From Bacteroidota bacterium (GTDB lineage: Bacteria > Bacteroidota > Rhodothermia > Rhodothermales > UBA10348): DNA of 64,000 bases. The DNA lies in NCBI GenBank assembly GCA_029262855.1, contig JAJCYP010000032.1, positions 1 to 64,000 on the forward strand, given 5' to 3'. How positions within the stretch are numbered: position 1 is the first letter of the stretch; the number at the start of each line of letters is the position of its first letter. The notes below the pieces were generated by a model. The model made no database searches. It was not told the DNA's origin and saw only the letters and a list, made by a program, of their open reading frames with translations. The position numbers were made by a program, and so were the translations under genes. Shown piece by piece: positions 23,206 to 34,288 of the stretch.

Positions 23206-23707
23206 GAATCTTCTCGACCGGGGAGGCCGGCTATTCGAGGACTTACCGGATCCGACATCCCCGAAGTGGACCTGGAGCGATTCGCCGAAATGACTCTGGG
23301 GGAGCTCTTGGTTCTACATGAGGGTAACATCGCTCGATACAGAATCGGACTGCGGGAGTTCGAGAAATGGAGGGCGCTGTGGTCACCTGGGTGACGCGGG
23401 TTGGATGGCCTCTCTGGTGCCGGGGGAGGGGGGGCTCCGACCCGAGAAGAATTGTCCACCGGCAATTTCAATCTGCCCCCTCCTAAGCGCGCAGTGGCAA
23501 TTCCGCCGCCGAGCCAGGGCGGATCGCTTGAGTAGCGGCTGGGCGAGATGGGGGTTCGAGACTGAGGGCCCCTCCAGCGTGTAAAGGCGAAGCCCGGCGA
23601 CATGATGTAGTCCAGGCTGAGCGTGTCCACGATCACGCCAGTGCGGCGCGTTTTGCGCGGTACCTATATCTTGCCGTGAGACTCTCCCCCAAAGAATTCT
23701 GAGGCCG
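23206..23707. other. 502-bp non-coding stretch with a detached Fic 3' end
   Basis: The first 6 bp follow the giant gene stop. 23212-23423 is a 98-99 percent copy of the end of the Fic-family gene located 2.2 kb downstream (see repeat entries). 23424-23707 contains no credible gene: it starts with a G-rich run and shows no recognised homology. Transcription signals for the 23708 gene may lie at its end. Confidence 0.6.
23212..23423 (+). repeat. Direct repeat copy 1: detached 3' end of the Fic gene
   Basis: 212 bp matching 25450-25661 at an offset of exactly 2238 bp. I see only two mismatches: GCC versus GTC in the ERF(V)EM region, and GTT versus GCT in the LL(A)LH region. Both ends are sharp. 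It corresponds to the last about 60 codons of the Fic-family gene, its stop, and 29 bp beyond. No Fic sequence precedes it, so it is a 5'-truncated pseudogene fragment lying 6 bp after the giant gene stop. Confidence 0.92.
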
Positions 23708-24154
23708 ATGGACGAAGCCAAACTGATTGACAAGCTGAAACTGATCGAAGCCCTCTTCGCTGGAGCTACCACGGGAGGCGAAAAGATGGCCGCGGCGCTA
23801 GCGCGGGAGCGAATCGTCGAACGGCTGAGGGTCCTGAATGCTATGGCGCCGCCCGTCGAGTACCGTTTTTCCATGACCGACATGTGGTCGCGGAAAGTGT
23901 TTGTGGCGCTTTTGAGACGGTATGACATCCAACCCTACCGGTATCCACGCCAGCGACACACGACGGTGATGGCCAAGGTGACGAAGCGCTTCGTCGATGA
24001 GACGCTCTGGCCGGAGTTCGAACAGATATCGGACACTCTGCGCGCCTACTTGTCGGATGTGACGGACCGAGTGGTGCATCAGGTGATCCATGAAGACAGC
24101 TCGGATGCCGAAGTGGTTATGGAAAGGGGGCAGCTTCCGCTTGACCTTGGTTGA
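23708..24154 (+). CDS. Hypothetical protein upstream of the Fic gene
   Basis: 148 residues, starting MDEAKLIDKLKLIEALFAGATTGGEK, no signal peptide or membrane segment. It is predicted mainly helical, with a basic middle (MWSRKVFVALLRRYDIQPYRYPRQRHTT) and an acidic C-terminal third. No family could be named. It lies inside the 2.2-kb segment bounded by the Fic repeats and ends 33 bp before a set of four direct repeats in front of the Fic gene. It could be a regulator or partner of the Fic protein, or a remnant of a mobile element. Both are inference. Confidence 0.6.
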   Translation: MDEAKLIDKLKLIEALFAGATTGGEKMAAALARERIVERLRVLNAMAPPVEYRFSMTDMWSRKVFVALLRRYDIQPYRYPRQRHTTVMAKVTKRFVDETLWPEFEQISDTLRAYLSDVTDRVVHQVIHEDSSDAEVVMERGQLPLDLG

Positions 24155-24187
24155 GGGTTCTGTCTTGATTCTGGACGTTCGGAAGAA

Positions 24188-24258
24188 TGTGGCGCAAGCA
24201 GTAAAATGTGGCGCTAGTGAGGAACAATGTGGCGCAAGTGGGCATCAAGTGGCGCAAG
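24188..24258. promoter_or_regulatory. Four 11-bp direct repeats at about 20-bp spacing
   Basis: TGTGGCGCAAG at 24188-24198, TGTGGCGCTAG at 24207-24217, TGTGGCGCAAG at 24228-24238 and AGTGGCGCAAG at 24248-24258. Start-to-start distances are 19, 21 and 20 bp, so all four lie on the same helical face. The last copy ends 9 bp before the Fic ATG (24268), where bound protein would block transcription or translation initiation. This is an iteron-like operator array. The Fic protein's own N-terminal winged-helix-like region is a candidate binder, which would make this autoregulation. That is inference. Confidence 0.8.
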
Positions 24259-24267
24259 TAGCGTGTC

Positions 24268-25632
24268 ATGTCCCTTTCTGAACAATACGAGAGCATAATT
24301 CAGGCACTGGCGGGTGGTCCGGAGGTCGGGCTCCCGCTATCCGATCTCGACGCTGACCTGAAGCGCCAAGGGCTGGATCTCCCGCGTCGGACTCTCCAGC
24401 GAAGGCTCTCGACTCTGGTTGACGGGGGACGAGCCCAGGCGCTCGGCACTGGGGCAGGGACGCGATACCGGTTGCCGGACAGCGGACCGTCTCCCGCCAT
24501 GCAATGGTCCCTGCCACTCTCTCCCGGGGCGCACGAGGTATTTCGGCTTGTGTCAAGACCGATCACTCACCGTCGACCAGTACCGTACCACCCGGAGTTC
24601 CTCTTGAACTACAATCCGGGATTGACATGGTACCTGTCTGAGGAAGAGCGGGCCGATCTGCGGGACTCCGGTAGCACGCCTCTCGGGAGTGAGCCTGCTG
24701 GGACCTACGCACGCGCTGTCCTGGATCGACTCCTGATAGATCTGTCGTGGGCATCGAGCCATCTTGAGGGAAACACCTATTCGCTTCTCGACACCCGAAA
24801 TTTGATAGAGTTTGGTCAGCGCGCAGAGGGGAAGGATGCGCTGGAAGCTCAGATGATTCTCAATCACAAGCATGCGATTGAGATGCTGGTGGAGCAGGCG
24901 GCCACTGTCACACTCTCTCCGTTCACGGTTCGCAACCTGCATGCGGCCCTGGCAGAAGATCTGCTTCCCGAGTCAACAGCAGAGGGGCGATTGCGGCGTC
25001 AGCCGGTCCAGATTAGTGGATCCGTGTTTACCCCCCTCGGCGTTCCTCAACAGATCGAGGAGTACTTCGGGCTGCTCCTTCAGAAGGCAGCCGCCATTCC
25101 GGATCCATTCGAGCAGGCTTTCTTCCTTTTGGTGCATATCCCTTATCTCCAGCCCTTCGACGACATGAACAAGCGGGTGGCCCGGGTCGGGGCTAATCTC
25201 CCGCTCATCCGACAGAATCTCTGCCCCCTTTCCTTCCTGGATGTCCTACGGGATCTATACCTGACGGGTGTCCTGGGGGTCTACGAGCTCAACAGGGTAG
25301 ACTTGCTTCGTGACCTGTTCGTATGGGCCTATCACCGCTCCAGCGAGCAGTACAAGTCCGTGCGACAGACCCTCGTCGCCCCCAATCCCTTCCGTCTCCG
25401 CTACCGAGATCAGATGGTAGCAGTTCTCCAGGAGGTGGTCCGGATTGGATCTCGACCGGGGAGGCCGGCTATTCGAGGACTTACCGGATCCGACATCCCC
25501 GAAGTGGACCTGGAGCGATTCGTCGAAATGACTCTGGGGGAGCTCTTGGCTCTACATGAGGGTAACATCGCTCGATACAGAATCGGACTGCGGGAGTTCG
25601 AGAAATGGAGGGCGCTGTGGTCACCTGGGTGA
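24268..25632 (+). CDS. Fic-family protein with degenerate active-site motif
   Basis: 454 residues. Residues 1-75 look like a winged helix-turn-helix (GLPLSDLDADLKRQGLDLPRRTLQRRLSTLVDGG, then a wing). The Fic core follows: an inhibitory-helix-like motif SSHLEGN at 163-169 ([S/T]xxxE[G/N] pattern) and the Fic loop at 295-306, QPFDDMNKRVAR. The canonical loop is HxFx[D/E]GN[G/K]RxxR, so the catalytic His is Gln295 and the first Gly is Met300, while Asn301, Lys302 and Arg303 are kept. Classic AMP transfer is therefore doubtful. The protein may be a DNA-binding regulator or use a different chemistry. The start at 24268 lies 9 bp after the direct repeats. Its last 180 bp are repeated upstream at 23212. 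Confidence 0.85.
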   Translation: MSLSEQYESIIQALAGGPEVGLPLSDLDADLKRQGLDLPRRTLQRRLSTLVDGGRAQALGTGAGTRYRLPDSGPSPAMQWSLPLSPGAHEVFRLVSRPITHRRPVPYHPEFLLNYNPGLTWYLSEEERADLRDSGSTPLGSEPAGTYARAVLDRLLIDLSWASSHLEGNTYSLLDTRNLIEFGQRAEGKDALEAQMILNHKHAIEMLVEQAATVTLSPFTVRNLHAALAEDLLPESTAEGRLRRQPVQISGSVFTPLGVPQQIEEYFGLLLQKAAAIPDPFEQAFFLLVHIPYLQPFDDMNKRVARVGANLPLIRQNLCPLSFLDVLRDLYLTGVLGVYELNRVDLLRDLFVWAYHRSSEQYKSVRQTLVAPNPFRLRYRDQMVAVLQEVVRIGSRPGRPAIRGLTGSDIPEVDLERFVEMTLGELLALHEGNIARYRIGLREFEKWRALWSPG

Positions 25633-25661
25633 CGCGGGTTGGATGGCCTCTCTGGTGCCGG
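25450..25661 (+). repeat. Direct repeat copy 2: 3' end of the intact Fic gene
   Basis: The resident copy of the 212-bp repeat, covering the Fic C-terminus, the stop at 25630-25632 and 29 bp downstream. Its right boundary (25661) coincides with the point where a 5'-truncated Uma2 gene begins, so this boundary is a recombination joint rather than an arbitrary end of similarity. Confidence 0.92.
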
Positions 25662-32717: not shown

Positions 32718-34288
32718 TGCGCCCGTGGACACTGCTCATAGCCCTTGCCCTCCTGCCGGCTGTAGGCCAGGCCGCCCAGGGCCAGGCCGCGGCCGGGCGG
32801 GCCGCCGCACCGGCGCCGTCCGTTCCAGCCGCCGCCACGCCAACTCAGGCCGCCGACACCCCGCTCTTCCTCGACATCTTCTGGACCGTCGACGGCCAGG
32901 CCATCCAGTCTCCGGCCATGCGTCTGGCGCTGGAGCGTCGCCTCCGGCAGGCCGGTTTCCGGCCGGTTCGGACGGAAGACCAGGCTACGGCTACCCTCGT
33001 GCTTGGTGTGGCGGCGCGGCGCAACACCGAAATGCTGGGCGTCTTCTCCTCGTACGCCGAGCTCTCGGCCCAGGTCTACGACATGGCCACGGGCCGGGAG
33101 CTGTATGCGGCGTCCTTCGACCGTGAGCGGGGTCTCCACCTGAGCTTTGAAGAGGCCGGCCGGCTGGCCATCGAGCACGCACTCTCCCGTTTCGTGGAGC
33201 ACCTGCTGCCGGAGGTCTCCATTGTATCGGAGGCGTTCTACCGGCAGACCGGCCAGATGGAGATGCCGGCGGACGAGCGGCCTCCGGAGATCGTCATTCT
33301 GGAGCCGGCCCTCACGCGTGGTATCAAGCTGGTCCGAAAGACCCCGACGGTCCGCATCCGTGGCCGAGTACTGGACGCCAGCCCCATCGCCTCCGTTGAG
33401 GTGAACGGCCAGCCCGTGCTGCTGGATACCTCGTCAGAATTTGTGCTCGACGTGCCGGTGGAGGAGGGGGATAACCCGGTGGTGGTGTCGGCCGTGGACG
33501 CCTACGGAAACGTGAGCGAAAGTGCGTTCGAATTGCCTCGGGAGAGGGCGCAGGCCCCGGTGGACGGCCGCTACGTGGCCCTCGTGATCGGCATTGATTC
33601 CTACGACGGGGTGTGGGCACCGCTGGACAACGCCAGTGGCGATGCGGTGGCGGTGGCGGCGGTCCTCCAGGACGAGTACGGGTTCGACGAGGTGACGACG
33701 CTACTGAACGAGGAAGCCACCCGGGTGAACATTCTCCGCGCATTCGAACGCCTCATCGAGAACACGGGGCAGCACGACAACGTCCTGATCTACTACGCAG
33801 GCCACGGCGACTATCAGGACCGGATGCGACGCGGATTCTGGGTCCCGGCCGACGCGGAGACGCGATCGATCATCGACTTCATCCCGAATTCGGTCATCCG
33901 TGACCTGGTGCGCGGGATTCCGAGTCGGCACACGCTCCTGATCGCGGACGCCTGCTTTGCTGGCGAGGTCTTCCGGGGCGAGGATCTCGAGGCCGTTTCG
34001 CCGACTGGAGCGGAGGATGTGCAGGCTGTGCGCTGGGTGCCTTCCCGGAAGGCCATGACCTCCGGGGGCGTCGAGCCAGTGATGGACGGAGGGGTGGAAG
34101 GCCATTCACTGTTCGCCTCGGAACTGCTGCGGGCGCTTCGGAGCGCCCGCGAGCCGCTGCCCGCGAGCGCCGTGTTCCAGGCGATCCGGGGTCCGGTGGT
34201 CGAGCGGACCCCCCAGACCCCGGTCTTCAGCGCGATCGGTGACGCCGGAGATGAAGGCGGCCAGTTTGTCTTCGTGCGACGCCAGTAG
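32717..34288 (+). CDS. Exported caspase-like (C14) protein with Ig-like module
   Basis: 523 residues. A signal peptide (MRPWTLLIALALLPAVGQAAQG) is followed by a Pro/Ala linker. Residues about 45-165 are an alpha/beta domain like those in LPP20/CsgG-type lipoproteins. Residues about 190-275 are an Ig-like domain (PPEIVILEPALTRG, RGRVLDASPIASVEVNGQPV, VVVSAVDAYGNVSES). Residues about 285-523 are a caspase-like domain (ALVIGIDSYDG, PLDNASGDAVAVAAVL) with the catalytic dyad His363 in YYAGHGDY and Cys413 in IADACFAGE. It should be an active Cys peptidase in the periplasm or on the outer membrane, where caspase homologues are rarely studied. It is co-translated with the CsgG-like genes and convergent, 8 bp apart, with a papain/hydrolase fusion carrying the same kind of Ig-like module. 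Confidence 0.85.
   Translation: MRPWTLLIALALLPAVGQAAQGQAAAGRAAAPAPSVPAAATPTQAADTPLFLDIFWTVDGQAIQSPAMRLALERRLRQAGFRPVRTEDQATATLVLGVAARRNTEMLGVFSSYAELSAQVYDMATGRELYAASFDRERGLHLSFEEAGRLAIEHALSRFVEHLLPEVSIVSEAFYRQTGQMEMPADERPPEIVILEPALTRGIKLVRKTPTVRIRGRVLDASPIASVEVNGQPVLLDTSSEFVLDVPVEEGDNPVVVSAVDAYGNVSESAFELPRERAQAPVDGRYVALVIGIDSYDGVWAPLDNASGDAVAVAAVLQDEYGFDEVTTLLNEEATRVNILRAFERLIENTGQHDNVLIYYAGHGDYQDRMRRGFWVPADAETRSIIDFIPNSVIRDLVRGIPSRHTLLIADACFAGEVFRGEDLEAVSPTGAEDVQAVRWVPSRKAMTSGGVEPVMDGGVEGHSLFASELLRALRSAREPLPASAVFQAIRGPVVERTPQTPVFSAIGDAGDEGGQFVFVRRQ

Follow-up and report, generated by a model that had tools for sequence, protein, structure and literature searches.

In the stretch of DNA analysed here (the window, 64,000 nucleotides of contig JAJCYP010000032.1 from a Bacteroidota bacterium), four direct repeats stand immediately ahead of a gene encoding a Fic-family protein with an N-terminal winged helix-turn-helix (wHTH). 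We consider it likely that these repeats are the gene's own operator, bound by the winged helix of its own product, in a probably autorepressing arrangement in which the Fic domain would be a sensor or otherwise altered. More broadly, the data are best read as showing a family of wHTH-Fic proteins that are autoregulated, probably by repression, each through an operator array of its own.

The repeat array and its surroundings

The earlier note had described four repeats spaced by 19-21 bp, with the last stopping 9 bp short of the Fic ATG; the coordinates confirm this arrangement (Table 1). Specifically, the four units follow one another at distances of 19, 21 and 20 bp from start to start, and 9 bp separate the end of unit 4 from the ATG at 24268, which is the first possible Fic start because an in-frame TAG occupies 24259-24261. 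The array is placed in the 113-bp gap between the upstream open reading frame (ORF) and this ATG, and no sigma-70-like promoter was recognised in 24100-24320. The label 'iteron', used in the note, is usable only in the sense of a direct-repeat array, without any replication meaning.

Table 1. Features of the window discussed in the text, with positions numbered along the window.
Feature	Position	Strand	Remarks
212-bp direct duplication, upstream copy	23212-23423		210/212 identical
148-aa ORF	23708-24154		directly upstream of the array
Operator array (putative), four direct 11-bp units, core TGGCGC	24188..24258	+	same architecture upstream of homologs
Array unit 1, TGTGGCGCAAG	24188-24198	+	
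Array unit 2, TGTGGCGCTAG	24207-24217	+	
Array unit 3, TGTGGCGCAAG	24228-24238	+	
Array unit 4, AGTGGCGCAAG	24248-24258	+	
wHTH-Fic gene, 454 aa	24268..25632	+	Pfam Fic 3.6e-9
N-terminal winged helix-turn-helix, residues 1-70	24268..24477	+	AlphaFold2 models and fold matches
Recognition helix, residues 40-52	24385..24423	+	P39, R40, R41 and R45 track the operator core
SSxxEGN motif, S163-N169, invariant	24754..24774	+	aligned with the FICD class II inhibitory Glu motif
Fic/DOC domain core	24913..25203	+	
Gln295 codon replacing the catalytic His (LQPFDDMNKR)	25150..25152	+	alignment with FICD
212-bp direct duplication, downstream copy	25450-25661		
Uma2-family ORF, 128 aa	25639-26025		
SNF2-type helicase, 1441 aa	26041-30366		

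The 8-mer TGTGGCGC has 8 matches in the window against 3.8 expected, and 3 of 100 shuffles reach 8; this word alone is therefore not rare, and the signal lies in the clustering and register of the units. Clusters of at least four copies of an 11-mer inside 80 nt, counted with up to two mismatches, are rare: the window has two, at 24186 and at 32766, the second being a GC-rich run, and among 20 shuffled windows 19 contained no such cluster and 1 contained one. A search of the 4.74-Mb assembly for TGTGGCGCN{8,16}TGGCGC gave three matches, each of them inside the Fic array. The repeat-count test on the window's own 200 bp gave a modest result (p<=0.033), and the strong support for the array comes from the homologs rather than from this count.

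A regulon was considered and rejected, the pattern TGTGGCGCN{8,16}TGGCGC being found nowhere else in its own genome. Of 98 loci tested, only 6 carry a second cluster of the same words at 60% or more of the operator coverage; four of these six were inspected and proved to be an in-gene stretch (L042) or to contain no phased array by eye. That the repeats act in RNA, as a leader structure, is a reading to which their place directly ahead of the start codon lends itself; we regard it as extremely improbable, since the folding of 24155-24290 is no better than that of shuffles (z -0.10) and a 10.5-bp period in direct repeats is a mark of DNA geometry.

As to the surroundings, the 148-aa ORF has no second copy in its own genome, and at the usual thresholds neither Pfam nor NCBIfam nor PADLOC offered a convincing family for it. 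When the first 31 loci were searched at E<=1e-3, the other 28 gave no match to this ORF, which is therefore no conserved partner. The Uma2-family ORF matches only from profile position 53 and may therefore be truncated. Two genes downstream of the Fic gene, the SNF2-type helicase shows strong PADLOC matches to the DpdE and ZorD profiles, and a defence neighbourhood is possible. A defence role was also considered for the Fic gene, which gave weak PADLOC matches to PDC-S04 and SoFic, but no conserved partner gene supports such a role. On annotated plasmids the homologous gene mostly stands alone. Integrases or recombinases are often close by, defence-type genes (SIR2, TIR, HipA) occasionally so, and none of these is a conserved partner. 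In addition, a segment of 212 bp, which covers the last part of the Fic gene and some sequence beyond it, is repeated upstream of the 148-aa ORF, so that the whole module lies between direct repeats. This duplication could be a tandem-duplication scar, the product of integration by recombination, or an assembly effect.

Fold and active site of the wHTH-Fic protein

The AlphaFold2 model of the whole protein, built on an alignment of 43 sequences, reached a pLDDT of 93.8 and a pTM of 0.73, and its winged helix consists of helices 3-15, 24-33 and 40-52 and of wing strands 57-59 and 66-68. Winged-helix regulators were absent among the matches listed for a fold search with this whole model, and the N-terminus was therefore modelled and searched alone. 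Residues 1-76 gave a pLDDT of 91.1 and matched Zur (3mwm; Z 11.4, 2.5 A, 74 aligned) as well as TtgV, PadR-type and Fur-type repressors, this group of regulators scoring Z of about 10-11. Winged helices of other kinds, linker histone and Z-alpha domains among them, were matched too. Such Z values are typical for common winged-helix arrangements and therefore support the fold, not a subfamily. The H1-H2-H3 order followed by a two-strand wing, which characterises winged-helix regulators, is present in the models at pLDDT 91-94. The winged helix-like region that the earlier note had surmised at the N-terminus is thus borne out, with residues 1-70 modelled at high confidence and matching wHTH repressors.

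The Fic/DOC profile PF02661 scores 37.8 bits on the window protein against a cut-off of 24, and all 56 family members compared match the Pfam Fic/DOC profile (E<=0.01). The Fic motif HxFx[D/E]GN[G/K]R with its catalytic His is replaced in the window protein by YLQPFDDMNKR, in which Gln295 stands where FICD has the catalytic His. The absence of this His, also claimed in the note, extends to the family: wherever the motif of a homolog can be read, Gln stands in its place. Of the 59 discovery rows, 58 show the full motif with Gln, and the remaining one, L043, ends after YLQP; of the 57 held-out rows, 55 show it, L087 being cut off and L132 unaligned there. Class II Fic proteins carry an inhibitory motif, [S/T]xxxE[G/N], ahead of the Fic core. 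Its counterpart here, SSxxEGN, is invariant in 56 sequences and aligns with that of FICD. The kept inhibitory Glu motif, together with a Fic pocket that contains Gln, suggests nucleotide or ligand sensing, or an altered activity.

Arrays and core words in homologous genes

Repeats upstream of homologous Fic genes, on which the earlier note had made its reading depend beforehand, were present in both a discovery set and a held-out set. In the discovery set (54 genes), the upstream regions contain 200 direct pairs of identical 6-mers spaced by 18-22 bp, compared to a mean of 20.4 and a maximum of 34 in control windows of the same loci; in the held-out set (50 genes, fetched afterwards) the count was 356, against a control mean of 19.8 and a maximum of 39. 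At least one such pair is present in 40 of the 54 discovery genes and missing in 14, and present in 28 of the 50 held-out genes and missing in 22; many of the genes that lack it show inverted, imperfect or otherwise spaced copies. Inverted 6-mer pairs are likewise enriched in the discovery set.

Helical phasing, also part of the note, becomes clear at the family level from the peaks of the pair distances. These lie at 11, 19-22, 31-32, 40-42 and 60-65 bp in the discovery set and cluster over the relatives at 10-11, 20-21, 31 and 40-42 bp, while the off-phase distances of 13-17, 24-28 and 34-38 bp are within the control range in the held-out set, and off-phase distances likewise in the discovery set. 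The repeated words differ by lineage and include TGGCGC, TGTCGC, TTGCGC, TGTCC and GAGCTC; further words read upstream are TGGCGCG, TGTCGCGA, TTGCGCCTA, TGGCACGAT, TTGTCCATTA, TGTCCTTAT, TCGTTTCA, TGGCCGTAT and others, and A/T flanks lie on either side of the unit cores. L004/L029, which is among the nearest relatives (62% identity) and stands outside the counts, clearly has an array, with TGTCGCGAAA three times at about 20-bp spacing. Two further homologs have a strict one-turn period instead of two turns, with units of about 10 bp in L104 (TTGGCGCGG) and of about 11 bp in L110 (ATGACCCGAA).

Homolog start codons were chosen by rule. Genes were dropped for want of a usable start (L004, L029, L084, L134), as partial or duplicate (L002, L019 twice, L044, L043, L068 and three held-out duplicates), for a short upstream (one held-out gene) or for an upstream similar to another (seven held-out genes). 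A count of the one best 7-mer repeat per gene had little power, p<=0.05 being reached by 38 of 58 genes, and its positives L009, L010 and L017, owed to unrelated simple tandem repeats, were removed from the pooled discovery test. An automatic motif search picked the visible core in many genes and was wrong in some, the same three among them.

When both sets are combined (107 non-redundant genes), each gene has on average 5.74 pairs at 18-22 bp in its 200 bp of upstream sequence. The corresponding rate is 0.50 on the downstream side of the stop codon (103 genes), 0.61 in the stretch -450..-250 (100 genes) and 0.43 within the gene (107 genes). Canonical Fic genes with the HPFxDGNGR motif, of which 21 from related genomes were counted, likewise have an upstream rate of 0.43, after 9 of 30 loci without a recognisable Fic motif had been dropped. 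These rates bear on the reading of the repeats as a mobile-element end or recombination site, bound by a transposase or integrase. Integrase or recombinase genes do lie near the Fic gene on several plasmids, and the 212-bp duplication flanks the window module; yet the phased repeats are confined to the 5' side, as the downstream rate of 0.50 against 5.74 upstream indicates, 9 of 15 plasmid regions have no annotated integrase or recombinase (2 of the 9 carry no annotation), and the core word tracks the Fic helix, as described below. This reading therefore appears very unlikely.

Repeat coverage peaks at -100..-41 relative to the start codon, and in several homologs the array touches the start codon, a position that suits blocking. 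A protein that binds the array to switch on either its own gene or one transcribed divergently is accordingly rather unlikely in our judgement, the more so as the characterised Fic-HTH autoregulator CccR is described as a repressor (PMC9755527). Activation would fit the arrays that extend beyond -120 in some homologs, and also two Roseibium plasmids on which a divergent DNA-repair exonuclease gene starts from the intergenic region of the array. On these plasmids (L056, L165) the exonuclease is accompanied in the divergent direction by a large ATPase gene, annotated as AAA family or YhaN family, and the array could exert control in both directions.

Phylum-wide scans place the family in 15 of 395 genomes at E<=1e-20 and, at E<=1e-50, in 13/398, 9/337, 22/377 and 20/396 genomes, E-values and tallies that depend on the genomes drawn. 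Named hits include Pseudoxanthomonas koreensis and metagenome-assembled genomes labelled Betaproteobacteria, Gammaproteobacteria, Chitinophagaceae, Bacteroidetes, Akkermansiaceae, Verrucomicrobia and Myxococcales. The family was also found on 30 plasmid records and at 16 viral-contig loci, and a phage collection yielded only one distant match, at 31% identity.

The variation of the repeated word was compared with the recognition helix, numbered from the Thr at the helix start as 0 (T42 in the window protein), so that P39 is -3, R40 is -2, R41 is -1 and R45 is +3. The +3 residue separates TGG/TGT cores (Arg) from TTGCGY cores (Tyr, Phe, His or Ser). This two-class rule held for all 30 classifiable discovery genes and for 23 of 26 held-out genes, the three misses being genes with TGTCRC as the main core. 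With four core classes and both sets taken together (79 homologs), Arg at +3 goes with TGG/TGT in 64 of 64 cases and Tyr, Phe or Ser at +3 with TTGCGY in 14 of 15; L108 breaks the rule, and 35 of 114 rows without a clear class among the four cores were left out of these core-helix counts. A second rule, by which genes with D, E, H or N at -3 should have a TGTCGC core and not TGGCGC, was fixed before the held-out set was fetched. In that set D/E/H/N at -3 goes with TGT in 8 of 8 cases, and 19 of 24 genes with P/A/S/K have TGG (Fisher p 1.2e-4 without correction for the tree), six rows with other residues at -3 falling outside the rule. In addition, Lys at -1 goes with TGTC cores in 10 of 10 cases.

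On the tree, -3 changes about 7 times and +3 about 4 times, the latter too few for significance, and in independent-pair sign tests neither single-position rule reaches 0.05. A combined -3/-2/-1 rule, chosen after seeing the data, gives a median p of 0.016 over independent pairs. By partial Mantel test, core and helix are correlated given the rest of the protein (r 0.117, 20/2000 permutations), an effect that is small and above chance; the largest per-residue values are found at residues 40, 51, 58 and 45, with some body positions close (0.155 vs 0.182). Since relatedness limits all these tests, we treat the code as likely, not proven: the operator core word likely tracks recognition-helix residues of the N-terminal winged helix.

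This correspondence also weighs against another host regulator as the binder of the array. Repeats ahead of a gene do not by themselves identify the protein that binds them; yet here the core word varies between relatives and tracks the helix encoded by the adjoining gene, the array pattern is unique in its own genome, and Fic genes of the other type in related genomes lack the array. We thus judge another regulator to be unlikely, and binding by the Fic protein itself is the reading followed here.

Proposed autoregulation and comparison with known systems

From the computed features, namely the array, its phasing and conservation over the family, the wHTH fold and the core-helix tracking, we infer a mechanism of binding, repression, cooperativity and ligand response. 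The TGGCGC core would be read by residues 40-52 of the Fic protein, with the wing probably in contact with the A/T flanks of the units. With units one or two helical turns apart, several monomers or dimers would be set on one face of the DNA, and because the protomers would lie there side by side, binding is probably cooperative. As the array fills the 113-bp gap up to the ATG, its occupancy should block transcription, and the protein would thus lower its own expression by negative autoregulation from an array set against the start codon. The Fic domain may then be a nucleotide or ligand sensor that frees the DNA, or an altered enzyme held low by autorepression.

A broader proposal, which we put forward tentatively and hold at somewhat less than an even chance, is that a Fic branch spread over several phyla has lost the catalytic His and turned into solitary, ligand-gated, self-addressed repressors. 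Each would have a phased operator array to itself, and the operator words would have diversified together with a few helix positions (roughly -3, -2, -1 and +3 around the helix Thr), which would keep copies in the same cell from repressing one another; the family would amount to a natural, readable code of protein-DNA recognition. If this is true, a functionally blank and repeatedly found Gln-for-His Fic branch gains a function, that of a DNA-bound, self-addressed regulator; more than 100 naturally matched pairs of recognition helix and operator become available for testing how winged-helix specificity changes; candidate orthogonal repressor-operator pairs are ready for use; and the role of Fic domains without the catalytic His becomes testable by reporter gene.

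Searches of a collection of PMC papers found none on operator arrays of the Gln-for-His wHTH-Fic branch, and since no account was found of an N-terminal wHTH branch with phased, diversified arrays, we judge the variant to be new. To our knowledge, the eukaryotic FICD/HYPE has no winged helix. It is the closest solved Fic fold (PDB 4u0u; Z 24.9, 2.6 A, 236 aligned, 17% identity), with an inhibitory Glu motif that aligns with that of the window protein and with its catalytic His present. Proteins of the SoFic type (PDB 3eqx, 3zcn; the latter solved with ATP, according to its entry title) share the Fic fold, with Z of about 22 to the window model, and have their winged helix at the C-terminus, as described in PMC2686095, at the opposite end from that of the window protein. 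The same 2009 Fido-domain analysis (PMC2686095) notes Fic-HTH fusions and proposes that the HTH regulates fic expression. Likeness in the active site is found in the bacterial Doc clade D2 of a 2015 survey (PMC4454073), whose motif Qx[FY]x[DE][GV]NKR has Gln for His as here; this likeness is drawn from the survey's description, in which the clade is usually single-domain and no DNA-binding domain or operator is mentioned.

The nearest published case is CccR of Yersinia pseudotuberculosis, described as a Fic autorepressor (PMC9755527), an account repeated in a 2026 review (PMC12894286). Like the window protein, CccR is a Fic protein with its own DNA-binding domain, and it is reported to bind and repress its own promoter (PMC9755527), a behaviour that is predicted for the window protein from the array and the core-helix tracking only. 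According to the same description, CccR differs in being a secreted effector with a C-terminal HTH and an intact catalytic residue, His192, needed for toxicity, whereas the window protein has an N-terminal wHTH and Gln295. The two also differ in their operators, that of CccR being described as two inverted 10-bp boxes separated by 26 bp, a single spaced palindrome with no phased array in that account (PMC9755527), and that of the window protein being, in our reading, an array of four direct units.
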